Below, piece by piece: positions 27,251 through 40,961 of a DNA stretch of 40,961 nt. Source of the DNA: a virus. Where the stretch lies: IMG/VR virus record IMGVR_UViG_3300027306_000008, positions 1 through 40,961 of that record; one strand, 5' to 3'. Below the pieces are notes generated by a model, which searched no databases, was not told where the DNA came from, and saw only the letters and a program-made list of their open reading frames with translations. Each line of letters opens with the position of its first letter. Within the stretch, counting starts at the first letter, position 1. The position numbers and the translations under genes are program-made.

Positions 27251-28741
27251 TTATTTGATGCGGCAGTAGAGGTACGGCACGGTGAACACACCCGTGCAGG
27301 CGCCCGCGCCGTACCCGATTTTCAGGTTGGCGCGAATGCGTGTGGCACCCACCGGGATGACAAACCCGGGGGCGTGGAACACGAGCTCGTTCGGGCTGAA
27401 CTCGCCTTGTGGGTCAGACGCGCTTTCCGCCATGCACGTCGATTCGTACAAAGGGGTGCTGCCGTTGAGTGCCTCGATCTGCAGCTTGGCGTACGAGAAA
27501 TTCGACGAGACGTTCGTCGCCTTGATGGCCATGCGTGCGTAGTCGATGTAGTCGACGCCCGGCGTGAGAGCGGCGCCCGACGCCATGTTTACGAACTGCG
27601 CAGACGCGTTCAGGATGGCGAGGTCGTCGGCGCCGTCCGTCTTGGTGCCGCTGAACGTCAGCGTGCATGCTGTGCCGCCAGGATCGCTGGCGTCGGCGAC
27701 GTTGGTGGCCATCGTCACGAGTGCAGCCGACGTGCCGGAGCGGACGTACTGGATCTGCCACGAGTCCGGTGCCACACCTGCGGCGGGGGCGGTGACCGTG
27801 CCCGCCGAGCCCGAGAGCAGAGGGTTCAGCATCAGTTGTTTGGACTGTGCGTACGTCTGCCGGCAGTCCACGTTCGACGCAGGAGGTACGAACGGGTTCG
27901 AGAAGTTTTCGCGGGCGAAGTCTTTGGCGAACTGGCGTCCGATCCGCACGCCGCCCTTTGCCCCGATGTGCACGCCCGCCGATGCTTGGTCGTACAGCAT
28001 GCCGGACAGGGCCGACCCGACTGAGCTGGTGCGGTCGATGAGCGCACGGTGAGCGTCCGACGCGACGGCCAGATTGTCTCGTACCAGATCCGCGATGTAC
28101 TGTCGGATCAGCACGATGTTTTGGCGAACAGTGGTCGTGCTGAAAGCGCCGTACCGCGGAGTCGTGTACACGATGCGGAGGGCGGCACCGATCGCTCGGC
28201 ACTTCATCGCGTACTCACGCAAAGCGATGCCGAAGGCGACGCAGTTGTCGGTGTCGAGCAAGTTGTTCTGCCCCGGCATCAACAGCACTTCGTTCGGGCG
28301 GTATGCGGCGACAGACGAATCAAAGCGCGCCAGAATCTGCTGCATGGTTTCGCCAGGGACTGCCGACACGGCCACCACGTCGTACGGCCAGCCGATTTCG
28401 GCCAAGCAGTGCACCCAGTAGCCGCGCGACGACAGCAGGCGGTAGGCACCCGCTGACACGACGTCGCCGTTCTTGCTCTGGGAGTCGCCGTCCACCACCA
28501 GGGTCCGGCGGGCGAATGGTGCGCCGCTCACCAGCAGCGCGCTTGATCCTGCTCGTTGCAGCTGCCCCGTCGCGCCGACGTAAACGAGCTGCTGAATGGC
28601 GGAGTTCGTCGGCGCCCCGTATGTCGCCGAGCCGGCGGTAACCAGGGCCGAGGCCGGGGAGGTGTCGAGGTCGTACGACACGCCGGCTTGTAGCCACAAG
28701 CCCGCGTACGTGCGACTCGTGGTCATCGTGATCACTGGCAT
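27251..28741 (-). CDS. Tail fibre/spike with an SGNH (GDSL) hydrolase domain
   Basis: A 496-residue protein. Residues 1-80 are a beta-rich attachment region. The SGNH hydrolase region follows: block I DGDSQS with Ser87, block II VPGETMQQI (Gly130), block III PGQNN (Gly157, Asn159) and a late GVHIGAKGG with His258. The usual Asp three residues before the His is Ala here, with Asp251 further upstream, so activity needs confirmation. The last ~190 residues are beta-rich, probably a carbohydrate-binding or trimerising part. SGNH fibres deacetylate capsule or O-antigen in several phages. AAGGAG lies before the ATG. Confidence 0.8.
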   Translation of the reverse strand: MPVITMTTSRTYAGLWLQAGVSYDLDTSPASALVTAGSATYGAPTNSAIQQLVYVGATGQLQRAGSSALLVSGAPFARRTLVVDGDSQSKNGDVVSAGAYRLLSSRGYWVHCLAEIGWPYDVVAVSAVPGETMQQILARFDSSVAAYRPNEVLLMPGQNNLLDTDNCVAFGIALREYAMKCRAIGAALRIVYTTPRYGAFSTTTVRQNIVLIRQYIADLVRDNLAVASDAHRALIDRTSSVGSALSGMLYDQASAGVHIGAKGGVRIGRQFAKDFARENFSNPFVPPASNVDCRQTYAQSKQLMLNPLLSGSAGTVTAPAAGVAPDSWQIQYVRSGTSAALVTMATNVADASDPGGTACTLTFSGTKTDGADDLAILNASAQFVNMASGAALTPGVDYIDYARMAIKATNVSSNFSYAKLQIEALNGSTPLYESTCMAESASDPQGEFSPNELVFHAPGFVIPVGATRIRANLKIGYGAGACTGVFTVPYLYCRIK

Positions 28742-29828: not shown

Positions 29829-30263
29829 TCAAGCGACCTGGACTTCGTTGGTGCGGCCGGTCACGACGTACTGGACGCGGACGGTCACCGTGCCTGCCGT
29901 GGCGTTGCCGTTCTGGTTGGCCAGGGTGATGCGGATGTCTTCACCAGAACCGCGGTAGCCGGTGGGCACCAGAGCCGTGCGACCGGCCGTCTTGATGCTG
30001 GTGGCGGCCAAGTAGCGGCTGGCCGACGCCGAGTCGCCCACGGCGATGGTCGCGGTACCGGTGTCGTTCGACACGGTCTCGACGGTCACGTCACCGCCGA
30101 CGACAACAGCGTTGGGCGGCAGACCGATGATGTCGGCCACGGGGGCGGCGACCGAGAACAACTTCTCGACGCCGTCGGTCATGACCATGGTGTCGGTCAC
30201 GTTGAGGGTGAACTCAGCCGACAGCGCGTACTGCAGGCCTCGGTTCTTCAGGAGCTTGGCCAT
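29829..30263 (-). CDS. Candidate capsid decoration (head) protein
   Basis: A 144-residue beta-rich protein with strands rich in Val, Thr and Ala (VVVGGDVTVETVSNDTGTATIAV) and no membrane segment, cysteine or enzyme motif. Position immediately after the major capsid gene and size fit a decoration or head-stabilising protein with a jelly-roll or beta-tulip fold. AAAGGAGG is placed well before the ATG, suggesting strong expression. It could instead be another minor head protein. Confidence 0.65.
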   Translation of the reverse strand: MAKLLKNRGLQYALSAEFTLNVTDTMVMTDGVEKLFSVAAPVADIIGLPPNAVVVGGDVTVETVSNDTGTATIAVGDSASASRYLAATSIKTAGRTALVPTGYRGSGEDIRITLANQNGNATAGTVTVRVQYVVTGRTNEVQVA

Positions 30264-30296
30264 GACTGGCCTCCTTTCATGAGCTGGTTGTGCTAC

Positions 30297-30316
30297 GGGC
30301 CGGCGTCAGCCGGCCC
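30297..30316 (-). promoter_or_regulatory. GC-rich hairpin just after the major capsid gene
   Basis: GGGCCGGC pairs perfectly with GCCGGCCC around a four-base loop, seven bases past the capsid stop codon. The sequence after it on the minus strand (GTAGCACAACC) has no U-tract, so it is more likely an RNA-stability or processing element than a terminator. Confidence 0.6.
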
Positions 30317-30323
30317 TGGCCCG

Positions 30324-31436
30324 TTACTGGGCGACGTAGCAGGAGATCACGCCGAAGTCTTCGACGGAACCGGCCTCGTAGATGTTGCCGAACTTGGGCT
30401 TCAGGAAGCCCAGGATCTTGCCCACCGAGATGCCTTGTTGGTTCTCGTAGTCGAAACCCTTCTCGACCCACTCGGGGGCGCCGATGTCTGCCATGCCCAG
30501 GGCCTGCGCGCCGCAGAACAGGACTTGGCAACCGTCGACGGTACCGCCGGAGCCCCACTTGGAGCCGGAAGCGGCACCGCGGGTGTTGTAGACGTGGCGG
30601 AACTCGTGCAGGTAGATGCCGTCGATCTTCACGCTGGAGCCGGTGAACAGGGCGTTGTTCTTGTCGGCCTGCTGCGAGTGACGCAGGTTCAGCATGTAGT
30701 CGGGGTCCTGCTTCAGCTTCGCGAACGCCGAGGGGGTCAGGAAGGCGTGGTAGGTTTCCTCGCCGCCGTCTTCCTTGATGCCGCGAACGTAGCGCTCCTT
30801 GGCGTAAGCCTTGAGCTGCACGAACATGTTCCACGTCGGGGTGTCGGCGGCGGCCAACGCAGACGTGGCAGCCGAGGCGACCAGCGTCTTGTTGGTGCCG
30901 TCCCAGCGCAGGCGGCGGTTGGCGGACGGGGCTGCCACGTCGGCGCCGAACTCGAGGAACGGCAGGTCCGAACCGGTGCGGTTGGTACCGTTGTTCTTCT
31001 TGGTGTAGGCCACGCCGGACATGGTCAGGAAGGCCAGCTGGTCGATGCGGTCGGCCAGCCAGTAGGCCAGCACGTCACGGCTGTTGCCGCGGAACTCGAC
31101 GATCGACTTCTGGTCGGCCATGCGGCCTTCGTGGCGGTTGGCGTGACGCAGCTGGTCGACGCGGATCACCTGATCGAAGGTCTGCATCGCCTCTTCGTTG
31201 CCTTCCAGGGTGCGGTCACCGGCCACGCCGTCGCCTTGCAGGTCGGCCAGCAGGGTGATGACTGCGCGAGCGCCCTTCTCGGTCTTCTTCAGCTCGGTGA
31301 TGTGCTGGATCAGCGAGTTGGGGCCTTTGCCCAGGAAGCGGTTGACGAAGGACATGTTGCGGGCCTGACGCCAGAGGTCCATCGACCAAACGGTCTTCTG
31401 TTCACTGGTCAGCAGGCCAAAGTTCGTGAGTGCCAT
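30324..31436 (-). CDS. Major capsid protein, N4-gp56 family
   Basis: A 370-residue protein that closely fits the N4-gp56 family: the start MALTNFGLLTSEQKTVW, FLGKGPNSLIQ, ELKKTEKGARAVITL, DGVAGDRTLEGNEE, MADQKSIVEFR and DVLAYWLADRIDQ. The fold is HK97-like. It forms the icosahedral shell and would be the most abundant late product. The ATG at 31436 with AAAGGAG upstream is chosen over the longer frame starting at 31490, whose extra residues lie in the leader. A terminator stands upstream (31562-31588) and a GC-rich hairpin downstream, so the gene may have its own transcript. Confidence 0.95.
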   Translation of the reverse strand: MALTNFGLLTSEQKTVWSMDLWRQARNMSFVNRFLGKGPNSLIQHITELKKTEKGARAVITLLADLQGDGVAGDRTLEGNEEAMQTFDQVIRVDQLRHANRHEGRMADQKSIVEFRGNSRDVLAYWLADRIDQLAFLTMSGVAYTKKNNGTNRTGSDLPFLEFGADVAAPSANRRLRWDGTNKTLVASAATSALAAADTPTWNMFVQLKAYAKERYVRGIKEDGGEETYHAFLTPSAFAKLKQDPDYMLNLRHSQQADKNNALFTGSSVKIDGIYLHEFRHVYNTRGAASGSKWGSGGTVDGCQVLFCGAQALGMADIGAPEWVEKGFDYENQQGISVGKILGFLKPKFGNIYEAGSVEDFGVISCYVAQ

Positions 31437-31536
31437 GGGGCTCTCCTTTGACTGTGGGTTGAAGTACTGGCATTTGTCGTGTCTCGCCACGACCAGCGAA
31501 CTGAGAATGTGTCGTCATCTCGCACGATGGGAGCGA

Positions 31537-31556
31537 GTGTAATCTACTTTTTACAC
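31537..31556. repeat. Short inverted repeat upstream of the capsid gene
   Basis: GTGTAA (31537-31542) and TTACAC (31551-31556) are separated by an eight-base A/T-rich spacer in the capsid leader, just after the terminator. It may be an operator or a late promoter element. I found no convincing -35/-10 pair here. Confidence 0.35.
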
Positions 31557-31561
31557 AAAAG

Positions 31562-31588
31562 AGAACAGCCCGCGATGCGGGCTGTTCT
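31562..31588 (-). terminator. Intrinsic terminator after the tail spike gene
   Basis: AGAACAGCCCGC pairs perfectly over 12 bp with GCGGGCTGTTCT around a three-base loop. On the minus strand it is followed by CTTTTGTG. It lies 15 bases past the spike stop codon and separates spike and upstream head genes from the capsid gene, so the capsid transcript probably begins in the 125-base leader or depends on read-through. Confidence 0.88.
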
Positions 31589-31602
31589 TGATTGGCAACG
31601 GG

Positions 31603-34302
31603 TCACGCGAAGTACGCGAGCGCGCCGCCTTTCTGTACCCACTTCGTGCCGTCGTACGCGAAGCGCGTGCTGCCCGTGGAGCCCGCAGCGGCCGTGCCGT
31701 CATCGGCTTTCTTGAACACCGAGGCCCAGGTCACCGTCACCGCTCCGCCCGCCGGGTGCACGATCGTGACATCCAGCTCGTCGCCTTTGCGCGCCGATGT
31801 CGGCGCGTTGATGGTCAGGTTTGCGCTGGGCTGCAGAACAATCTTGCGGCTGGTCAGCATGCTGTGCGTAACGGAGGCAGCTTTGTACACACGGGTGTCA
31901 CATGTGATGCCCAGGGTGTTCGCTACCGACATGATGGGCAAGTTCATCACGTTCGGCGCAAGCGGCGTGATTACGCCGCTGAAGTCGCTGTCCTTGATGA
32001 CCAGTCCGTTGACGCGGAGGGGGTTGTTCGACGCCGCGCCGATGCCGTACGACGACGCGCCGCCGCGGATCGTGACGCGTTCCAACGTCATCGTGTTTTG
32101 CGTAAGCGCGGTGCGGCCGGGAGTGACAACGGTGGCCCCGCGCAAGCCCACTACCTCGTTGTTGAAGTCCTTGAGGTAGATGGTCGTCTCGCCGAACATC
32201 TTGTAGATCCAGTAGTAGCCGTTCAGAGACCCGCCGCCTGACAGCACGTTGTCAAAGATGCCGACGTAGTCACCGGCACGCCAACCGACCGCAGGCGTGC
32301 CGATCGGGCATTCATAGGCGCCGAACCCGTCGACGGAATCAGTCGCTGAAACAAAGACGTGCTCTTGCCAGAAGTTGCCGTTGAACCCGAAGTTGATCGC
32401 TGCCACGTTGGGCTGCACGCCCTCGAACAAGCAGTCGTGCAGGACCGTGTCGCGTGCGTTGAACGAGATCACATGACCGTTCACCACTGACACGTCCGCG
32501 TTGCTGACGAGGTGCCCCGAGATGCGGTTATCGCGGGTTTTGTGCACGGTCGAAGCGTTCGCGATCTGAATCCCGCCGTTTCCGGGCATGTTCTGACAGT
32601 TGATTTTCGTCTGCGTGCCCTGGACGTCCTGCAAGGACCCGACGCCGAAGCGTGTGGACGAACCGGTCGTGTCGTTGATGACGAGACTCGCTTCGACGGA
32701 GGTGTCCATCGTGCCCACGTTCATCACGCCGAACGCGTTCACTCCGGAGTGGGTCAGCTCGAGGAACAGCTGACAGCCGGTGCCGGTGCCGCCTGTCGGC
32801 GAATTGGGGGTGGGCGGAAGAGTGGTGTACTTGCCGCGCGAAATGGGGCGCACCGCCTCGACCTCACCGTTGGGGCCGACTTGCGTGACGCGGAACACAG
32901 CGTGTTCTTGCACTGAGCCGCCCGACAACGTCAGGTCGTCGCCGACGGTGTAGCCAGTGCCCGACGACACATGCACCAGCTGGCCGGATGTCCAGGCGGC
33001 GAACGCCGTGCTGTCCAGACCCACGTTGTTACGATACGCGATGTCGCTCAGACCGAACGTGTTGGCGGTCGGGATACGGACTTGGTAAAAGCCCGACAGG
33101 TTCTGCATGCCGTTGGACGGGATGTTGATGAACGAGACGACTTTGCCCGTGGTCAACCCGTGACCGTTGAGCGTGACGATGGCCTCGCTGGCGAGCGACA
33201 CGGCCGATGGCGAGCCGATCAATGTGCCCGGGATCGCCGAATACACCCCCGTGCCGTCGGTACCGACATCCAAGTCGGCCTCCACGTGCACGTCGCGCAG
33301 ATCGGAGATGACGCTGGTGTCAGGGGTAGCGTGGTTCATGAGCGACACGCCGCCGTTGCGCAGCTGGCCTACACGACCCGTGAACGAGATGCGACCGCCG
33401 GAGACGCGACCTGTTTTGGTGTACCCCAGTGCAGAGGCGAACGGTTTGGTTGCCGGGACGTACACCTTGCAGCCCGCGCCGCGTGTGCCGAGCGTAGACA
33501 CACCCACAGCCGAAAAGTTCTTGAGCCCTTGATCGTCGTAATACTCGCTGTTGGTGATCTGATCGTCGCCGAAGGCCAAGCAGTCGTCGCCCGCCTCGAT
33601 GTACCCGCCGATCACGTGGATGTTTTCGCCGAACAGGATGTGCAGCCCGTCTTGGAACACCCGCGTGGCGCCCAGGACCCGGGGGTTCATGATCGTGATG
33701 TTCTTTCCGCCGATGCGCGTGGACCAGTTCTGCGACCACAGCCCTGCGATGAGCGTCACGTCCTTGATGAGCAGGTTCTCGACGTTGAAGTACTCCATCA
33801 CGGACAGGTAGTCTTTGTTCGCAGCATCAAGCGTGATGTCTTCGAGACCCATGAAGCGCGCCGAACCGTACCAGCTGCCGTTCTTCTTGTTCCATTTGGC
33901 GCGGATGACCGACGACAGAGGGCTGGTGAACAGGGCCCCGTTGGTGTAGACGGCGTTGGTCGTCTTGATCAACGTGGTGCCGTTGCCCTTGATGTGGATG
34001 AACTCAGGGTGCCACAACCCGCTCACGAGGTACGGGGCCTGCCCGTACAGCTCGACGGTGCGGCGGCGCTTCGAGGCGGCGGCTTCCGCCCCCATGGTAT
34101 CGAGGAAGTCCTGCAGGATGGCGGTGTCGTCGTTGCCGCTCGGTTTGGGCGCGGCAAATGCCGCGCCCGAGGACACGTCGGGCACCCACCCCGCCCCTTC
34201 GTAGTAGACCCACGCCGAGCCGTCGCCCATGCTGATGGTGTCGCCTGTTCGGTAGCCAGGGAGATTGGACGGGGATGAAACGAGGTTCGAGGTGTAGTGC
34301 AC
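31603..34302 (-). CDS. Tail spike with GH28/pectate-lyase-like beta-helix
   Basis: An 899-residue protein. Residues 1-50 look like a virion-binding head. NDDTAILQDFLDTM at about 57-70 is the start of a parallel beta-helix. QDGLH (217-221) and GDDCLAFGDD (238-247) match the catalytic motifs of GH28 polygalacturonase-like hydrolases (Asp pair in GDD). The helix continues to about 780, with a small beta-domain at the C-terminus (TRFAYDGTKWVQKG). It probably digests a capsule or lipopolysaccharide on the host surface. The GTG start has GGAG 6 bases before. It is odd to find a spike gene between scaffold and capsid genes. Confidence 0.82.
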   Translation of the reverse strand: MHYTSNLVSSPSNLPGYRTGDTISMGDGSAWVYYEGAGWVPDVSSGAAFAAPKPSGNDDTAILQDFLDTMGAEAAASKRRRTVELYGQAPYLVSGLWHPEFIHIKGNGTTLIKTTNAVYTNGALFTSPLSSVIRAKWNKKNGSWYGSARFMGLEDITLDAANKDYLSVMEYFNVENLLIKDVTLIAGLWSQNWSTRIGGKNITIMNPRVLGATRVFQDGLHILFGENIHVIGGYIEAGDDCLAFGDDQITNSEYYDDQGLKNFSAVGVSTLGTRGAGCKVYVPATKPFASALGYTKTGRVSGGRISFTGRVGQLRNGGVSLMNHATPDTSVISDLRDVHVEADLDVGTDGTGVYSAIPGTLIGSPSAVSLASEAIVTLNGHGLTTGKVVSFINIPSNGMQNLSGFYQVRIPTANTFGLSDIAYRNNVGLDSTAFAAWTSGQLVHVSSGTGYTVGDDLTLSGGSVQEHAVFRVTQVGPNGEVEAVRPISRGKYTTLPPTPNSPTGGTGTGCQLFLELTHSGVNAFGVMNVGTMDTSVEASLVINDTTGSSTRFGVGSLQDVQGTQTKINCQNMPGNGGIQIANASTVHKTRDNRISGHLVSNADVSVVNGHVISFNARDTVLHDCLFEGVQPNVAAINFGFNGNFWQEHVFVSATDSVDGFGAYECPIGTPAVGWRAGDYVGIFDNVLSGGGSLNGYYWIYKMFGETTIYLKDFNNEVVGLRGATVVTPGRTALTQNTMTLERVTIRGGASSYGIGAASNNPLRVNGLVIKDSDFSGVITPLAPNVMNLPIMSVANTLGITCDTRVYKAASVTHSMLTSRKIVLQPSANLTINAPTSARKGDELDVTIVHPAGGAVTVTWASVFKKADDGTAAAGSTGSTRFAYDGTKWVQKGGALAYFA

Positions 34303-34317
34303 GGCGGTCTCCGAAAG

Positions 34318-34659
34318 TTAAGAGGCGTGGGTTCCTTCGACCCCACGTGCGATACGGTCCTTGGTGCGCGACTCAAGCGCCTGCGCGGCCAGCTCGAGGT
34401 GGTTGATGGCGCGCTGGTTTTCAGCGCACGGGAACTTGCTGTTGAGCACCTTCATGCGATGCGTCAGCACCGCGATGAGGGCCTCGTTGGTCAGGCCGTT
34501 GACGCCGGCCTCTTTGATCGGCCCGAGCTGGAACGACAGGCGGAGAGAGTAACGCCCGGCGTGAACGTCGTACACATGCCCTTCGACGCTGGTACCGTCT
34601 GCCATGCCGCTGATGGCGTTCACATAGACGCCGTTGTGGTCAGTGTGGATGCGAGCCAT
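34318..34659 (-). CDS. Tad1/Acb2-like protein (candidate cyclic-nucleotide sponge)
   Basis: A 113-residue protein. Residues 1-50 are beta-rich. The C-terminal half reads NGLTNEALIAVLTHRM, CAEN (78-81), INHLELAAQALESRT, then RGVEGT (105-110). From memory this is the pattern of phage proteins with a Tad1/Acb2 helical hairpin (N-G-x-T-N-E-A-L ... E-N ... R-T ... R-G-V-E-G-T), and the beta-domain-plus-hairpin order suits Tad1 best. Characterised members bind and hide signals of Thoeris and CBASS immunity. That this protein does so is inference. GGAGG is 7 bases from ATG 34659; the ATG at 34665, one base after GGAGG, is less likely. It lies between scaffold and spike genes. Confidence 0.65.
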   Translation of the reverse strand: MARIHTDHNGVYVNAISGMADGTSVEGHVYDVHAGRYSLRLSFQLGPIKEAGVNGLTNEALIAVLTHRMKVLNSKFPCAENQRAINHLELAAQALESRTKDRIARGVEGTHAS

Positions 34660-34661
34660 GA

Positions 34662-35714
34662 TCATGCCTCCAGTTCGTCGCCGCGCATGGCAGCCAGGGT
34701 CTTTTCGTCGAGCTTCATGAAGTCGTCCTGCGACATCTTGAGCACGTCCTTCGCGCTGATCTGGCCACCGAGCTTGTCGTGGTCTTGGCCGACCTTCGTC
34801 GTCGCAGGAGGCTGCCGGCCGGCAACGTCCGCGTTCTTCTTGCGCTGCTCTGCCGCACGCGCTTCTGCCTTGGCCTTGGCCGCGTCCTCAGCACTGACGC
34901 GCGGGGTGGCCTCGGCGGCGGTCTCCTGGGCGCGGGTCTTGGGCGGCATGATGAGCTTGATAGCCTTCTGCAGCGCCTGCGAGGGCGTGTAGCCCGTGGT
35001 TTGGTAGGCGGCCTTGAGCTCGAGCACTTCAGCGGTCTTGTCCTTGTCGAAGTCCTGGTGCTTGGGGTCCAGCTGCGGGTAGGCCTCTTCCATGCGGTCG
35101 ACCAGGGTGTCGTAGCGCACGCGCTCGACGGCGCGAGCTTCCGCGGCCTGGATGTTCATGTTGGTGCGCTTGTCGTTGATGTCGCGGTCCATCGTGCGGA
35201 TCTCGCGCATCAACTTGTTGGCTTTGTCCAGCTCACCGTCTGCCACGGCCTTGTTGTACTCGGTCTCTTTCGCGATCAGCTTGTCCTCGAGCTGAGTGAT
35301 CTCGTCGTTCGTGGCAGCGACTTGCTGGCCTTGCTGGAACTTCGACAGCTGCTGCTCGAGAGCTTCACGTCGGCCGCGCTCGGCCTCGAGGATCTCTTTG
35401 TGGCGGCTGAGCGGGATGCGCGCGTCGGCCTTGGCCTTGTCGTCCTTGTCGGCCTTGCCGTCGCTGCCCTTGTCCGGGTTGTCCGGGTCCACGTCGCTCT
35501 CGTCACCGCCACCGCCGTCGCGCAGCGAGGTGTCAGCGGCGCCGATCGTGTCGGCGTCCGGCTTGACGTCGGGCTTGACGTCGGGCTTTTTGACTTCATC
35601 GTCCGTGGGCGTCCAGTTGTCGCCGCGGTCGACTGTGCCGCCGCCCGCGCCGCCCTGGTCGGCGTCGCCTGCAGGTTCCATGTAGCGCTTGAACATCCAG
35701 TGCAGCTTGATCAT
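34662..35714 (-). CDS. Scaffolding protein (capsid assembly)
   Basis: A 350-residue acidic, charged protein. Residues ~15-100 are disordered with Asp/Gly/Lys repeats, including a KPDVKPDVKPD stretch. About 105-250 is predicted coiled coil (EILEAERGRREALEQQLSKF). The C-terminal ~50 residues include DKLGGQISAKDVLKMSQDDFMKL, the usual capsid-binding end. This profile, its place between portal and capsid, and an ATGA overlap with the portal gene make it the scaffold. It would leave the prohead before DNA packaging. Confidence 0.85.
   Translation of the reverse strand: MIKLHWMFKRYMEPAGDADQGGAGGGTVDRGDNWTPTDDEVKKPDVKPDVKPDADTIGAADTSLRDGGGGDESDVDPDNPDKGSDGKADKDDKAKADARIPLSRHKEILEAERGRREALEQQLSKFQQGQQVAATNDEITQLEDKLIAKETEYNKAVADGELDKANKLMREIRTMDRDINDKRTNMNIQAAEARAVERVRYDTLVDRMEEAYPQLDPKHQDFDKDKTAEVLELKAAYQTTGYTPSQALQKAIKLIMPPKTRAQETAAEATPRVSAEDAAKAKAEARAAEQRKKNADVAGRQPPATTKVGQDHDKLGGQISAKDVLKMSQDDFMKLDEKTLAAMRGDELEA
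35558..35593 (-). repeat. 12-bp tandem repeat within the scaffold gene
   Basis: Nearly three copies of a 12-base unit (35558-35569, 35570-35581, 35582-35593; the third differs at its end). In the reading frame it encodes repeated V-K-P-D, in the disordered part of the scaffold. It is the sort of tract that changes length by slippage without harming the frame. Confidence 0.7.
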
Positions 35715-37846
35715 GCTGTTTCCTTCGGGTTGGAGGGTTGGGGGTTGGGTTGGTTGGCTTGCTTCACGGCCACGGCCCGCTGAACGGCGGCGTCCTGTTC
35801 GCGAAGGCGGGCGTTCTGCTGCGCCTCCATCTGGCGCAGCCCGAACTCGAACTGCATTTTGCGCTCTTCCATGCTCATCTCGTGTTGGAATTTCTTCTCA
35901 TCGAGTGCGATGTCGGCCTGCACCTTCATCGCCTGGGCCTGGGCGCCGTTGTCCTCTGGCGGCGTAGCCGCTTCCTTCTCAGCCAGCACGCCTTCCTTGC
36001 GGGCCTTGGCGTGCTTGAGGCCGGCGTCGGCCTGCTTGCCAGCGGCCTCTGCTTCCGTCTTGGCGACTTCGGCCTGCTGGCCACGCATGGCGAGCGCTCG
36101 CTGTGCCTGCGCCTCGGGGCTGTTCGCCGCCGCGTTCATCTTCTTGATGATCTCGCGCTTGCCGATCAGGCGGCTGTTCTCGATCAGCGTTTCGTCCGGG
36201 ATGGCGACACCCAGTTCCTTCAGAGCGACGGCTTGGTCGAATTGGCTGTCCTCCAGGGTCTCGCGCTGCGGTACGCTGGAAGTGACGGTGTCGTACTCAC
36301 CGAGCATCAGGTCGTTGACGACAGTACCATCGGGGCTCATGCCGTTGATGGTGAACGTCTCTTCCTCGCCGGTGAGCTTGTCCTTGGTAATGGTCAGGAC
36401 GCGTTCCTCGGTGTAGAACGTCTGGATCAAGTCCAGGATGTTGCGAGCCAGGATGAAGTCGGAGCGCGTCAAGCTGTCCAGAGGCTTGACGAAGTTCGTG
36501 CTGCCGGCCTGACGCTTGGCCTGGATCGCCTTGGCGGCGACGTCGGCGCGGTCTTGGCCCTGCATGCTGTCCGAGACGCCAGAGATCCCCTTGAGGTGTT
36601 CCTCGGCCTTGTAGCTGATCCGGTCCAGACCCTGCGGCACCTGATTGGGCTGAATCTTGACCAAGTCTTTGTCCGGGTCGCCATTGACCTCGACCACGAG
36701 GCCGGTCTCGGCACCGCGCTGCTCCAGCTCTTCGGCGCTCATGTTCACCAGGGCGCCGGCCTTGGCCTTCCAGCCGCTGTTGGCCGTGGTGTTGACCACG
36801 TGCAGCTCCTGGCTCGAGACCTTGTTGAGCAGCTCCTGCGGCCCGATGAGGTTCTCCACGAGGCCGATCGTGGTGCCGTGACGGAAGAACGGAAAGAAGG
36901 GCACGACCGTGAAGTGCTTGTACGGGCTCCAGTCGTCGTGCAGCACCACGTTGTCGGCGATCACGACCCACTTGATGCGGTGGACCATCTTCGGGACGAC
37001 CTTGAAGCCGAACTTTTCCACGAACCACGCGATGCGGTTGCGGTCGAAGTCGGCCGGGATGGCGCGCATGTCGCCCGTGGTTGGGTCAACGAAGTGCTTC
37101 TGCTTATCCAGCGTGCGGTACTGACGTTCGATCAAGCGGATGTTGCGCATCACGCTGGACTCATCGTACGTGCCGTTGTACATCGGGTTGAAGCGGTCAC
37201 CGAAGCGATCGCGCGTGGACTGGATGCTGTCGTAGCCGTACGGGAAGAAACTCTGCTCGCGGTTGCGCAGAAGATCGGCATCTTCCTTGTTGTACAGCAC
37301 CGCGATGTCGTCAGCGGTCACCCACTTGGTCGTGAAGACCTCGTTCCACGTGTCCGGGTCGTACTGCTCGCCGTCCGGGTCCACGATGACGTTCTTGGGG
37401 TTCAGGTTCTCGATGACGACCTCGCCCTGCAGGCTGTCGTTGAACCCGATGCGGACGTCGAGGAACCCGCGGGACGTGATGATCCCGTCGGCGAACATGT
37501 CCGAGCGCTTCCAGTCCAGCTGGTTGTTGTCGCTGATCTGTTTGAAGACCTTCGTCAGCACGTCGGCCGTCTCGGCGGGCGACCCTGAGCGCGGGCGGAA
37601 CGCGATCTCGTTGCGGTTGTAGATCTGCTCGCCCATGACGTTGGCCATGGTCGAGATGATCTTGTTGATCGTCAGTGCCGGGCGGCGCTGCAGGCGCAAC
37701 TTGGTCTTGTCGGCCTTGTCCCACTGGTCGCCGCGAAAGAACGCCTCGCACTTGTCCGCCTTCTCGACGAACTGCGCGTGCCCGTTGTCACGGGCCCAGG
37801 CGTAGCGGTACCAGATTTTTGTGCACAGGGCGGCGTCGATCGGCAT
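35711..37846 (-). CDS. Portal protein (P22-like)
   Basis: A 711-residue protein. Markers are CEAFFRGDQWD near 33-43, RPALTINKIISTMANVMG, NRNEIAFRP and DNNQLDWKRSDMFADGI, all typical of large P22-type phage portals. The C-terminal ~150 residues are Ala/Glu/Gln-rich helix (barrel-like), as in P22 gp1. Twelve copies would form the DNA channel at one vertex. The size is normal for the family. The ATG follows the DUF5856 gene after seven bases, with a weak purine tract. It overlaps the scaffold gene by four bases. Confidence 0.93.
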   Translation of the reverse strand: MPIDAALCTKIWYRYAWARDNGHAQFVEKADKCEAFFRGDQWDKADKTKLRLQRRPALTINKIISTMANVMGEQIYNRNEIAFRPRSGSPAETADVLTKVFKQISDNNQLDWKRSDMFADGIITSRGFLDVRIGFNDSLQGEVVIENLNPKNVIVDPDGEQYDPDTWNEVFTTKWVTADDIAVLYNKEDADLLRNREQSFFPYGYDSIQSTRDRFGDRFNPMYNGTYDESSVMRNIRLIERQYRTLDKQKHFVDPTTGDMRAIPADFDRNRIAWFVEKFGFKVVPKMVHRIKWVVIADNVVLHDDWSPYKHFTVVPFFPFFRHGTTIGLVENLIGPQELLNKVSSQELHVVNTTANSGWKAKAGALVNMSAEELEQRGAETGLVVEVNGDPDKDLVKIQPNQVPQGLDRISYKAEEHLKGISGVSDSMQGQDRADVAAKAIQAKRQAGSTNFVKPLDSLTRSDFILARNILDLIQTFYTEERVLTITKDKLTGEEETFTINGMSPDGTVVNDLMLGEYDTVTSSVPQRETLEDSQFDQAVALKELGVAIPDETLIENSRLIGKREIIKKMNAAANSPEAQAQRALAMRGQQAEVAKTEAEAAGKQADAGLKHAKARKEGVLAEKEAATPPEDNGAQAQAMKVQADIALDEKKFQHEMSMEERKMQFEFGLRQMEAQQNARLREQDAAVQRAVAVKQANQPNPQPSNPKETA

Positions 37847-37853
37847 AGGCGAC

Positions 37854-38216
37854 TCACTTCAAGAATTTGAGCTTGTAGAACGACTTGTCGATCACCGACA
37901 AGATTTCGTCGATCAGGTTGGCCAACTCCGTGCTGCCGTCTGCACACTCGGTGCGGTGCGCCTTGATCCACTGGTGCAGATCCGGCAGCCAATCCACCGG
38001 CTCCCCGGTGGGCACAGGCACGTTGGGGAAGCTCTTGAACGGCCCCTCCACGCCCATGCGGCACTCGGCGAACGTATCTGCAGCCTCGACGATGGCGTCA
38101 TAGAACTCGTTCAGCGCCATGTGCGCGGAGTACGAGCGGGTCGTGAAGTGGGCAAAGTGGGCGGCGGTGCGCGCTGCGAAGCAGCGGGCGATCAGTTCGG
38201 CGCATTTATCGGCCAT
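37854..38216 (-). CDS. Ferritin-like phage protein (DUF5856-like)
   Basis: A 120-residue helical protein. The order H-F-x(2)-R-S-Y-S-A-H-M-A-L-N-E-F-Y-D near 24-40 followed by E(A)ADTFAE (44-51) fits the DUF5856 pattern, in which H, E and D residues sit as in a ferritin-like or Dps-like four-helix bundle. No metal-binding activity has been shown for the family to my knowledge. It sits between terL and portal genes, where such proteins have been seen in other phages. AGGAG stands 6 bases before the ATG. Confidence 0.7.
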   Translation of the reverse strand: MADKCAELIARCFAARTAAHFAHFTTRSYSAHMALNEFYDAIVEAADTFAECRMGVEGPFKSFPNVPVPTGEPVDWLPDLHQWIKAHRTECADGSTELANLIDEILSVIDKSFYKLKFLK

Positions 38217-38234
38217 GCGGTTCTCCTGTGCGCA

Positions 38235-40184
38235 TCAAGCTGCCATGTGCGACGCTGCTGCGCCACCGACCTTGAGTTTGTCCTTCCATGACGGAATCCT
38301 CTGAGCACGCGGTTTGAGAGGTGCAGCCCGCCCGATGGCAAGCTGCGTCATCCAGGCCAGTGAGTCAACGCAGTCGTCGTGCACGCCGGCCGGGAAGCGC
38401 AGCATTTCCTGCCGCACGACGTCGTACCAGTCACCCGAGTCGTTGAAACTGACCATGCCCTGTTGCATTCGGCCTTGAAGTGGGCGGGCACGCGCCATTT
38501 TGTCGGTGATCGGCTTCAGCACTTCGATGGACGGGTAGAGCTGCCGCTCTTTCATGCGCTTTTTCAGCAGCGCTTCGATCGCTCGATAGATCTGCCCGTC
38601 CTCAAAGCCCAGAATCAGACTCGGACTATACCAGCGTACGACAAGATTCAGGATGCTCTCCACGATGAAGAACGCGTCCCCGCTTTTGAAGCGCAAGACC
38701 TCAGCGATGTGCAGCATGTCGTTCGTGTCCTGCAGCCCGACGCTGCCGACCGTGTAGTCGTTCTGCTTTTTCTCGCTGATGGCGAAGTCGAACGCGATGT
38801 AGACGTTGGCGTCCTTGACCCTTGGCGGCTGGGCGCGGCGGAACTGCTCGCGGGTGAAATACGCCCCATCGTCAGGGACCGGGTTCTGCTGATACAGGGC
38901 TGCCCACCAGCGCCCGCCGTTGTTCTGGGCCTTGATCCGCAACAGCTTGGCCACGTCGTAGCGTGCCGGGTGCAGCGCGTCGCCCGCGTTGCGGAGCCAG
39001 CGCAGATTGGTCGGGTCGGTCCCGCTCAGCATCGCCCGCGCGGCGGCTTCCCGGGCTTCTTCCGGGAACGCCATGACTTTGGCGCTGACCATGGCCTTGC
39101 GGAGCACGTCTTGCGCCATCTTGCCGGTGTCGATGCGGACGATCTCGTCCGTGGCCGTGTCCAGCCACTCGTCCTGCTCGGCCAGGGCGGGGTACTTGAC
39201 CACCTCGAACTGGTCGATGTGGTCCTCGTCGCCGCCCAGCTTCATCATGTTCTGCAGGCGGCCCGCCAAGTCGTCGTCGTGCCACCACGTCTGGATCACC
39301 AGCACGCCGCCACCGGGGGCCAAGCGGCTGTAGGCGGTGGACAGGTACCACTCCCAGGTCTTTTCGCGGCCGTCGGCGCTGTCCGCCTCTTCCGCGTTCT
39401 TCACGGGGTCGTCGATCACGAGGACGTGAGCGCCCTTACCCGTGATCGGGCCGCCGATACCAGCTGCCACGTAGCCGCCGCGGTGGTTGTGTACGCCCCA
39501 CTCTTCGGTCGAGCTGTTGTTGGGGTCCAGGCGGGTGTCCGTGAACACGCTCTGGTAGGCGGGGTCGTCGATCAGCTGCTTGACCTTGCGGCTGAAACCC
39601 ATCGCGAGGCTCAAGTTGTACGAGCAGGCGATGAACTCGTGGTCCGGGTAGCGCCCCAGGTGCCACGCAGGGAAGTTCTTGGACGCGATCTCGCTCTTGC
39701 CGTGCCGGGGCGGCATGAGCAGCATGAGTCGGGGCGATTTGCCCTCCGCCACGGCCTCACTGAAGCGCTCCAGCCGGCGGCAGATGTCATCGTGGACCCA
39801 CCCTGCGAGGTACTTCGGGTTCATCCGCTGGATGAACGGCATGAGACGGCGCCGCGACAGCACGCGCGACGCCAGTTCGCGTTGTACGGCCGCAGCTGCG
39901 GGGGTGCTTGCAGCCGGAATTGGCAAAGTCCCGGTGGGCTGAGGCGAAGGCGTGAGCGCTGCGAGTTTCGAGGTACTCGCTAGGGTGGGCTTTTTCGCGC
40001 TCTTGCCAGTGGACGCTGAACCACGCACGGGCGCCTTTTGGCCACTCGCGGATGGTTTTGAGCTCGTCGAGGCGCGTGTTGAGGCCGCAGTGGTCTTTGT
40101 CTTGGACGAGCCACGCTGCGAAGCTGCGGTAGCGGTAGCCTTCTTCGTCGTAGAACTCGGCTTGCGGGTCGAAATCTTGGTCAT
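38235..40184 (-). CDS. terL: Terminase large subunit
   Basis: A 649-residue protein. It has Walker A MPPRHGKS (157-164), Walker B HVLVIDDP (253-260) with Asp-Asp, then an RNase H-like nuclease domain with FDFA, LGFEDGQ and HDDCVDS motifs. It cuts the concatemer and pumps DNA into the prohead. Residues 1-~98 are low-complexity Ser/Thr/Lys/Ala/Pro; conserved sequence begins near AAVQRELASR. The ATG at 40184 overlaps the terS stop codon (ATGA) and has GGAG 7 bases before, so the long N-terminal extension is probably translated. In another frame the same DNA encodes a protein-like reading (39787-40203). Confidence 0.95.
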   Translation of the reverse strand: MTKISTRKPSSTTKKATATAASQRGSSKTKTTAASTRASTSSKPSASGQKAPVRGSASTGKSAKKPTLASTSKLAALTPSPQPTGTLPIPAASTPAAAAVQRELASRVLSRRRLMPFIQRMNPKYLAGWVHDDICRRLERFSEAVAEGKSPRLMLLMPPRHGKSEIASKNFPAWHLGRYPDHEFIACSYNLSLAMGFSRKVKQLIDDPAYQSVFTDTRLDPNNSSTEEWGVHNHRGGYVAAGIGGPITGKGAHVLVIDDPVKNAEEADSADGREKTWEWYLSTAYSRLAPGGGVLVIQTWWHDDDLAGRLQNMMKLGGDEDHIDQFEVVKYPALAEQDEWLDTATDEIVRIDTGKMAQDVLRKAMVSAKVMAFPEEAREAAARAMLSGTDPTNLRWLRNAGDALHPARYDVAKLLRIKAQNNGGRWWAALYQQNPVPDDGAYFTREQFRRAQPPRVKDANVYIAFDFAISEKKQNDYTVGSVGLQDTNDMLHIAEVLRFKSGDAFFIVESILNLVVRWYSPSLILGFEDGQIYRAIEALLKKRMKERQLYPSIEVLKPITDKMARARPLQGRMQQGMVSFNDSGDWYDVVRQEMLRFPAGVHDDCVDSLAWMTQLAIGRAAPLKPRAQRIPSWKDKLKVGGAAASHMAA

Positions 40185-40203
40185 TCAGGTTCTCCGTCGC
40201 CAT
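39787..40203 (-). CDS. Possible overprinted gene spanning the terS/terL junction
   Basis: A 138-residue frame starting at ATG 40203, with GGAG 7 bases before it. The first ~95 residues look like an ordinary protein: acidic, with well-spread Trp, Tyr and Phe (EEGYRYRSFAAWLVQDK, WPKGARAWFSVHWQERE), and G/C-rich third positions like real genes. The last ~40 residues look like a shadow of terL. It overlaps the C-terminus of terS and the first ~130 residues of terL in a third frame. It may be a small protein or the ancestral frame over which the terL extension arose. Its translation is inference. Confidence 0.5.
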   Translation of the reverse strand: MATENLNDQDFDPQAEFYDEEGYRYRSFAAWLVQDKDHCGLNTRLDELKTIREWPKGARAWFSVHWQEREKAHPSEYLETRSAHAFASAHRDFANSGCKHPRSCGRTTRTGVARAVAAPSHAVHPADEPEVPRRVGPR

Positions 40204-40780
40204 CTTCTTGCTCCATCAAGGCCGCTTCGGCCTCAAGTACCTGCTGACCTGTCTCTGCGATGACCTTGAACAGCTCTGCGTCGCTCATGCGGTCCAGGCG
40301 GTCCAGCATCACTTTGCCGTTGATCGTGATGTCGAGCTTCTTCTGCACCGGCTCGTAGTAGCCGCACATTTTTCCGATCTCGCGCCAGCCTGACACCATC
40401 GTTCCGGGCTCCGCCATGAGCTTGGCCAGTTCGATGGACTCCAAAAGGCCATCCATCACGCGCTTGCGGGTCATTTGGCTGGCCTCTTCGTAGAGGCGCT
40501 TCTCGTCCTCGTACATGCGCAGCACGTTGGGCATCCGCACGAGGCGATACGCGTATGCGCCCCCATCGTTGTAGCCCGCCTTGGCCGATGCACTGAGGAT
40601 CGACTCGCCCTGCGCCCAGAACTTGACGAACGCGCGCTGCATGTCGGTGAGCGGTTTGTCCGGGCTGATCAGCTCGGCGTTCTTCGCGCTGGACGTGTTG
40701 ATGCCTCGCCGCGCTTGCGCTGCGTGCTTAGCGCGGCCTTCTGGCGTCGCGTCGGCCCCGCGCTTTTTGGATGTAGCCAT
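40181..40780 (-). CDS. terS: Terminase small subunit
   Basis: A 199-residue protein. Residues 1-40 are basic and disordered. LTDMQRAFVKFWAQG followed by SILSASAKAGYND (44-72) forms the DNA-binding HTH typical of terminase small subunits, and a helical oligomerisation region and acidic C-terminus follow. It recognises phage DNA for packaging and activates TerL. The ATG at 40780 is chosen because MATSKKRG looks like the usual basic start; in-frame ATG 40789 and TTG 40792 are alternatives, and none has a strong ribosome site. The stop codon overlaps the terL start. Confidence 0.85.
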   Translation of the reverse strand: MATSKKRGADATPEGRAKHAAQARRGINTSSAKNAELISPDKPLTDMQRAFVKFWAQGESILSASAKAGYNDGGAYAYRLVRMPNVLRMYEDEKRLYEEASQMTRKRVMDGLLESIELAKLMAEPGTMVSGWREIGKMCGYYEPVQKKLDITINGKVMLDRLDRMSDAELFKVIAETGQQVLEAEAALMEQEDGDGEPE

Positions 40781-40800
40781 GGTGTGCATCAAAGTTGGAC

Positions 40801-40844
40801 GTACGGAAATTTTATAGAAAAAATTGAAAGTGGTTTGTACGGAA
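40801..40844 (-). promoter_or_regulatory. Candidate terminase-operon promoter region with a direct repeat
   Basis: TATAAA on the minus strand (40816-40811) resembles a -10 box in an A/T-rich stretch, unusual for this GC-rich genome, about 30 bases upstream of terS. No good -35 is found at 16-18 bases. GTACGGAA is repeated at 40801-40808 and 40837-40844, flanking the A/T-rich stretch, and could be an operator. Confidence 0.4.
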
Positions 40845-40884
40845 GGGCCGGGTGGGTCGGTTTTTCGTGTGTAGGTCGCCGCGT

Positions 40885-40961
40885 GAGTCTCTTATCCCCC
40901 TGTCCTCAAAGACCGTCCCGGGTTCGGATTCGGATTCGAGGACTGGGATAAGGAGTCTCTT
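40885..40961. repeat. Direct and inverted repeats at the right edge
   Basis: GAGTCTCTT occurs at 40885-40893 and again at 40953-40961, running to the window edge. Between them CTTATCCC...GTCCTC (40891-40907) pairs with GAGGACTGGGATAAG (40938-40952), a 14-bp imperfect stem over a 30-base loop. The loop contains TTCGGA repeats with six-base periodicity (about 40923-40938). This may be a regulatory region or lie near a DNA end. No gene is seen. Confidence 0.5.

Follow-up and report, generated by a model that had tools for sequence, protein, structure and literature searches.

A predicted Tad1-family gene in an exchangeable slot between the scaffold and capsid genes of a phage head cassette

The tad1-like gene and its surroundings

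The window, by which we mean the whole stretch of viral DNA analysed here (40,961 nucleotides, positions 1 to 40,961 of IMG/VR record IMGVR_UViG_3300027306_000008), carries a small open reading frame among its head genes. This frame lies on the minus strand, where the initial annotation had placed it, and runs from an ATG at 34657-34659 to a TAA stop codon at 34318-34320. The features of the locus are:

30324..31439, minus strand: gene of the major capsid protein (371 aa, counted from the ATG used), bordering the slot downstream (PHROG 334, major head protein, 7.3e-80)
31440..34661, minus strand: accessory slot, the scaffold-capsid interval, here with the tad1-like gene and the spike gene (comparison with 74 related loci)
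31562..31588, minus strand: hairpin of 12 pairs followed by CTTTTGTG, resembling a terminator, between the spike gene in the slot and the capsid gene (hairpin scan)
31603..34302, minus strand: 899-aa putative tail spike or decoration gene, second in the slot (PHROG 9703, 'head decoration', 2.1e-8)
34318..34659, minus strand: tad1-like gene, 113 aa, predicted immune-nucleotide sponge (phmmer, AF2 fold, PHROG 2428)
34662..35714, minus strand: 350-aa putative scaffold gene, bordering the slot upstream (between the portal and capsid genes)
34667..34671, minus strand: GGAGG, resembling a ribosome binding site, 7 nt ahead of the tad1-like ATG (sequence reading)
35711..37846, minus strand: portal protein gene, 711 aa (PHROG 156, 9.1e-110)

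Along the minus strand the genes follow one another in the order TerS, TerL, a 120-aa gene, portal, putative scaffold, tad1-like gene, 899-aa putative spike and major capsid. The claim that the frame is surrounded by head genes was borne out by PHROG matches for TerL (PHROG 38), the portal and the major head protein, while TerS gave a weak match to PHROG 51. The scaffold label was drawn from place and composition, a PHROG search with this protein having returned no match; of the best 80 of 311 capsid-related loci, 74 have a relative of it ahead of the capsid gene. The spike label is putative as well, the sole PHROG match of that protein being to a 'head decoration' family; its cluster of slot proteins has members in loci L110-L113 only (loci are denoted by L numbers). 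A second in-frame ATG of the tad1-like gene, two codons upstream at 34663-34665, overlaps the stop codon of the scaffold gene. The two genes would be coupled either by a 4-nt ATGA overlap or by the arrangement GGAGG-7 nt-ATG. Terminator-like sites in the scanned region numbered 12 for 10.0 expected by shuffling, and among those listed the hairpin at 31562-31588 has the most G-C pairs.

The gene order of the window is conserved in L001, L002 and L005, which encode an identical Tad1-like protein, and in L003, whose protein is 89% identical. The tad1-like gene is under purifying selection (comparison of the window and L003 copies: dN 0.057, dS 0.474). Two other genes of the region deserve mention. 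The 120-aa gene (37854-38216), in the terminase-portal interval, belongs to PHROG 858, 'starvation-inducible transcriptional regulator', and has relatives at the equivalent place in many capsid-related loci; a lipase/esterase-like gene (27251-28741; PHROG 6102, 4.4e-20) lies within the structural block.

Sequence and predicted fold of the protein

By phmmer, the window protein matched the solved CmTad1 (8kbb) at 1e-11, phiKZ gp184 at 2e-6 and CbTad1 (7uav and others) at 1.3e-4, and it fell into PHROG 2428 at 6.5e-31. With tblastn, 128 phage records passed E<=1e-3, each of them below 60% identity; SBSphiJ7 Tad1 (5e-14) was one. The Pfam model PF24729 (Acb2_Tad1_hairpin), the profile check proposed in the initial annotation, gave no match to the window protein; it matches SBSphiJ7 Tad1 (34.2 bits) but misses accepted Tad1 relatives, namely phiKZ gp184 and the OLIVR5 and 1706 homologues, so that its missing match is uninformative. 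None of the Pfam models of Acb4 (PF13876), Tad2 (PF11195) and RyDEP (PF02026) matched the protein, an NCBIfam search gave just one irrelevant weak match, and its N-terminal 40 residues alone found no match in annotated phages.

The AlphaFold2 model, computed from an alignment of 28 sequences, reached a pLDDT of 90.6. It shows strands at residues 2-6, 11-18, 24-34 and 37-43, in agreement with the beta-rich N-terminal half proposed initially, and then helices 58-75 and 79-105, which form a long hairpin. The structure comparison suggested by the initial annotation also came out on the side of Tad1, the hairpin being present in the model. All 12 Foldseek matches at E<=0.001 were Tad1, with TM scores (by query) of 0.68-0.79 to Tad1 chains. 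In VIA-align, which covers listed folds only, eight Tad1 entries scored Z 10.0-11.1 and the next, unrelated entry 7.4; at the best Z of 11.1, 107 residues were aligned with an rmsd of 3.2. The entries ranked under Tad1, for the most part helical hairpins, were set aside. Model residues 1-112 aligned to C. botulinum Tad1 by the same program. T4 Vs.4 (7uq2, with cGAMP), which we take to be Acb2, aligned to the model over the helical hairpin only (51 residues, Z 6.5). Acb2 is described as made of helices only, with no beta-sheet (PMC12043709). Because a Tad1-like N-terminal sheet of four strands is predicted together with the hairpin, we rejected an Acb2 identity. Thus the Tad1 half of the original 'Tad1/Acb2-like' label stands, on sequence, predicted fold and conserved signature, and the Acb2 half falls. 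These data support the view that the window protein is a Tad1-family member, new to the family.

The signature FQxGP..GxNG..xE.L..EN...RT..R..RGVEG, which summarises the present alignments, occurs in the window protein, as do all the motifs first listed for it (NGLTNEAL at 54-61, EN at 80-81, RT at 98-99 and RGVEGT at 105-110). Among 17 wider members, F43, Q44, G46, N54, G55, E59, R98, R102 and G109 are invariant or nearly so; among 28 closer members sixteen positions are invariant, including N54, G55, N81, R98, R102 and R105. Canonical Tad1 is a hexamer, a trimer of dimers, with pockets between protomers. The characterised proteins (CmTad1 8kbb; CbTad1 7uav/7uaw/8smd; SBSphiJ7) resemble the window protein in the sequence of the C-terminal hairpin, in nearly the whole predicted fold and in the signature residues. 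They are, however, 123-142 aa long, whereas the window protein has 113 aa, a shorter loop with a leucine, an N-terminus particular to its subfamily and a place in a head cassette. In the window subfamily the alpha1-alpha2 loop is one residue shorter, and Leu replaces the Phe/Tyr of canonical Tad1. F82 of CbTad1 aligns with L72 of the window protein, beside the one-residue gap, and N92 with N81, which is conserved in the 28-member set; F82 and N92 are presumably ligand-contact residues. The shorter loop and the loss of the aromatic residue suggest that the ligand specificity of the window protein may differ from that of characterised Tad1.

The N-terminal stretch HTDHNGV is highly conserved within the window subfamily. 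A tie between this conserved N-terminus and capsids was considered and rejected, L004 and L006 sharing it with no recognised head gene alongside. Elsewhere in the family, a 183-aa form (L036, L048, L050, L051, L056, L061, L066 and L076) has an extra N-terminal part, GYLIEYKDGG..GYISWSPKDVFE, which by itself matched no Pfam family in the one member tested. The Tad1 proteins of L033 and L074 have the N-terminal half in common and differ in their C-terminal halves, which suggests recombination within the gene.

An exchangeable slot beside the capsid gene

The neighbourhood of the capsid gene was compared in the best 80 of 311 loci found with the capsid protein; 74 have both scaffold and capsid borders, and six were left out for want of a scaffold relative before the capsid gene. 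In 17 of the 74 loci the slot is shorter than 300 bp, and the longer intervals carry further open reading frames. Local profiles placed at least one of four families, Tad1, Tad2-like (PF11195), RyR (PF02026) and PF13876, in the slot of 35 of the 74 loci, or in 28 of 59 when counted per capsid cluster (97%). Per cluster, the content of the slot was:

Acb4: 8
RyR: 7
Acb4 and RyR: 7
Tad2: 2
Acb4 and Tad2: 2
Tad1: 1
Acb4, RyR and Tad2: 1
none of the four: 31

Pfam, applied to ten chosen slot proteins, recognised RyR PF02026 in three (43-45 bits), Tad2-like PF11195 in three (42-95 bits) and Phage_gp49_66 PF13876 in one (109 bits); three had no match. Three extra genes lie just upstream of the scaffold: a Tad1 in L171 and an Acb4 in L129, both in the portal-scaffold interval, and an Acb4 in L128, where the portal is unrecognised. 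PF13876 is reported to be the Acb4 sponge family (PMC11722364), and phage proteins with PF02026 to degrade or sequester cADPR signals (PMC13232231). Acb4, Tad2 and RyDEP share their class of target with Tad1 and alternate with it in the slot, although they are separate Pfam families. The exchange of families, together with the nearly empty slots, indicates that the slot turns over: the scaffold-capsid interval is an exchangeable slot for four families, unrelated to one another, whose members either bind immune nucleotides or destroy them. A literature search, which lay outside the main Tad1 structure papers, returned no description of such a slot.

The slot also receives genes other than those of counter-defence, such as the spike of the window and, by eye, lysis-like and fibre-like frames, so that it is in part a general accessory slot. 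Three further small families were seen in it. One, with the motif FALWLNGYL, occupies seven of the 74 slots (L149, L150, L151, L164, L168, L173 and L182) and gave no Pfam match in the one member tested (L150); it is a candidate for a new counter-defence family. A SAWR family of about 98 aa, HTH-like by eye, occurs in five loci (L114, L115, L128, L129 and L156), and a GRKVWYR family of about 119 aa in three (L126, L127 and L133), the L127 member having no Pfam match.

The preference for the slot was evaluated over whole contigs, which were searched using the Tad1 alignment and, for the other families, the Pfam models, on the 41 of the 80 capsid-related contigs that measure at least 17 kb. They contain 40 genes of the four families (17 PF13876, 14 RyR, 5 Tad2-like and 4 Tad1), of which 34 lie in the slot for 1.8 expected by length. 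The six others are in L129 (Acb4), L144 (two), L149 (two) and L158 (Tad1). When the lower limit was raised to 40 kb, which left 20 contigs, 13 of 18 genes lay in the slot, for 0.45 expected. Because slot hits share ancestry, probabilities based on length, which assume independence, overstate the significance of these excesses. HNH_3, a control that is likewise accessory, had none of its ten genes in the slot, while the second control, N6_N4_Mtase (PF01555), had no match in the 41 contigs and was hence uninformative.

We also analysed where Tad1 relatives sit, in 83 loci made up of the best 80 of 218 relatives and L007-L009, a heavily redundant set. In this placement, as in the counts for classes B and C below, head genes were recognised by BLAST to PHROG-labelled proteins, so that others may be missed. 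The gene stands within a head cassette in 47 loci, distributed as follows:

head cassette A (window type): 4
head cassette B (T7-like, PHROG 332/3437): 5
head cassette C (PHROG 145/241/206/247): 33
head cassette D (PHROG 12/1684/10): 5

The 36 remaining loci have it elsewhere, or with no recognised head gene. It directly precedes the terminase genes in L025 (confirmed by PHROG) and, by eye, in L021, L031 and L070; it is near the tape measure in L026 and near the tail sheath in L077, and in others it lies far from structural genes. Two of the 11 relatives from genome contigs are from Acinetobacter, one in a B-like and one in a C-like arrangement (by eye). An argument from Tad1 placement alone was tried and rejected, four head-cassette classes among roughly 26 contexts (a rough count) being not clearly above chance.

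In the Tad1 tree the window lineage A (100/98) is separate from B-D; these form a group with two pre-terminase rows, supported at 90/91, a value under the tool's star. The separation of A from B-D indicates at least two entries into head cassettes, four being not proven. In class C, Tad1 proteins at least 94% identical can adjoin capsid proteins just 31% identical; either the capsid gene has been exchanged while Tad1 stayed, or both have been shuffled.

The three other cassettes were then compared in the best 80 of 453 relatives for class C, the best 80 of 84 for class B, and 79 distinct loci (from the best 80 of 84) for class D. In class C, the interval before the scaffold holds Tad1 in 8 of the 80 loci, PF13876 in 39 and none of the four families in 33; the two families are never together, and all 47 matches fall within this interval. 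In class B, the interval after the capsid gene holds Tad1 in 3 of 80 loci, PF13876 in 10 and a Tad2-like gene in 1; PF13876 lies upstream instead in five loci, 61 have none, and the interval measures 36-111 bp in 16. Of 50 records chosen from these 160 loci, 25 were matched by the official PF13876 model: 24 had been assigned by the local profile as well, and in L220 the match lies elsewhere on the contig. Two head cassettes of other PHROG families, B and C, therefore also swap these families beside capsid genes. Class D behaves otherwise: Tad1 is present in 5 of the 79 loci, the three other families are absent and no exchange was observed; the interval is below 150 bp in 50 loci, holds another insert in 22, and the portal is unrecognised in 2. 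In three related contigs of class C (L248, L252 and L253), the PF13876 gene has an internal TAG and is possibly broken.

Proposed timing of the predicted sponge and alternative explanations

The explanation that we judge likely is that the window encodes a Tad1-family sponge for alarm nucleotides, placed in an exchangeable slot of the head block, probably co-transcribed with the portal and scaffold genes, and appearing together with structural proteins that can trigger Thoeris. The protein would bind the cADPR isomers of Thoeris, the cyclic oligonucleotides of CBASS, or both, and the effectors would stay silent. Its gene is probably on one message with portal and scaffold, and expression from the head operon would put the sponge on hand as the alarm begins, when structural proteins able to trigger Thoeris, and some CBASS, appear. 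The data establish the family, the predicted fold, the slot, the exchange of families and the selection on the gene; ligand binding, late timing, benefit and the causal link to capsid sensing are what we infer here. The terminator-like hairpin between the slot and the capsid gene suggests that the capsid mRNA may be partly separate.

The initial annotation had found the late place of the gene odd, given that immune signals appear early. This premise is not required, since staphylococcal and streptococcal Thoeris are reported to be activated by the major capsid protein (PMC12578639): if capsid can trigger Thoeris, a late place for a sponge gene is not paradoxical. A prohead protease is likewise reported to interact with a CBASS sensor (PMC12409349). 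The early options raised at the same time keep their place, immune evasion proteins of other phages being described as expressed early to mid (PMC13232231).

A broader reading is that the capsid-gene junction is a dedicated late counter-defence locus, at which phages of several head types keep exchangeable erasers of immune nucleotides (Tad1, Tad2, Acb4 and RyDEP) because capsid or assembly triggers Thoeris and CBASS, and that the FALWLNGYL (seven loci), SAWR/HTH (five) and GRKVWYR (three) families are undiscovered members of it. We propose this only tentatively, leaning somewhat against it. If one spot has been repeatedly filled by four unrelated families of signal erasers, the timing of the alarm, at capsid production, may have shaped the location of the antidote. 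The slot furthermore provides a short list of unknown small proteins as candidates for new signal-binding activities, and a route by which counter-defence genes can be found from their location instead of their sequence.

The alternative that survives best, although we hold it to be unlikely, is that the slot merely tolerates insertions and that counter-defence genes fill it because no other small accessory genes are as common, neither capsid sensing nor timing playing any part. It accounts for the presence of the spike, other frames and unknown families, for the 31 of 59 capsid clusters that have none of the four families, and for cassette D, with Tad1 in 5 of 79 loci and the three other families in none. 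It fits poorly with the control, as HNH_3, also accessory, is found in the slot in none of ten cases; with the convergence there of four unrelated families that have one kind of target; and with the recurrence of exchange in head cassettes B and C, where the junctions are different ones.

That the sponge is instead packed in the virion and injected with the DNA, acting before phage gene expression, would make its late place simply that of a virion protein. We consider this quite improbable. The phiKZ homologue gp184, which has the C-terminal Tad1 domain in common with the window protein, was validated as injected by western blot of a tagged protein (n = 1; PMC10449902), and a review of jumbo phages states that Tad1 is injected by phiKZ (PMC13282480). 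Its relative gp280 of 201phi2-1 is annotated as 'identified using mass spectrometry', and orf71 of Lactococcus phage 1706 as 'structural protein', a record annotation which is the sole basis here, the literature search having found no paper. However, about 100 N-terminal residues precede the aligned part in gp184; the window protein has nothing comparable and is a bare domain with no obvious packaging part. Nor was a head gene recognised next to the L004 and L006 homologues, which share the N-terminus of the window protein, and one packaging signal is difficult to reconcile with replacement by Acb4, Tad2 and RyR proteins.

Early expression from a promoter of its own within the head operon is an explanation to which we give little credence. 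A precedent is known: the Acr genes of P. aeruginosa Mu-like phages lie within the head operon and have their own promoter. They are described as accessory genes in region RGP G (PMC4378225), which resembles the present slot in that small counter-defence genes replace one another at a single site while the rest of the phage is conserved; the RGP G genes, however, inhibit CRISPR-Cas and are not nucleotide-signal binders, and the phages and flanking genes differ. The early-to-mid expression stated for evasion proteins of other phages points the same way. Against this, a search for sigma70-like promoters on both strands of 30000-40961 found none, for 1.1 expected by shuffling, other promoter types lying outside its range, and the tad1-like gene begins within the scaffold stop codon or almost directly after it.

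Least probable of all is that the Tad1 fold has been kept for another ligand or none, and for another purpose such as assembly: the shortened loop, the lost aromatic residue and the conserved HTDHNGV stretch would suit such a change, but sixteen positions are invariant across 28 members, related phages with no tad1 in the slot carry the same head genes, and tad1 alternates with three other signal-binding families.
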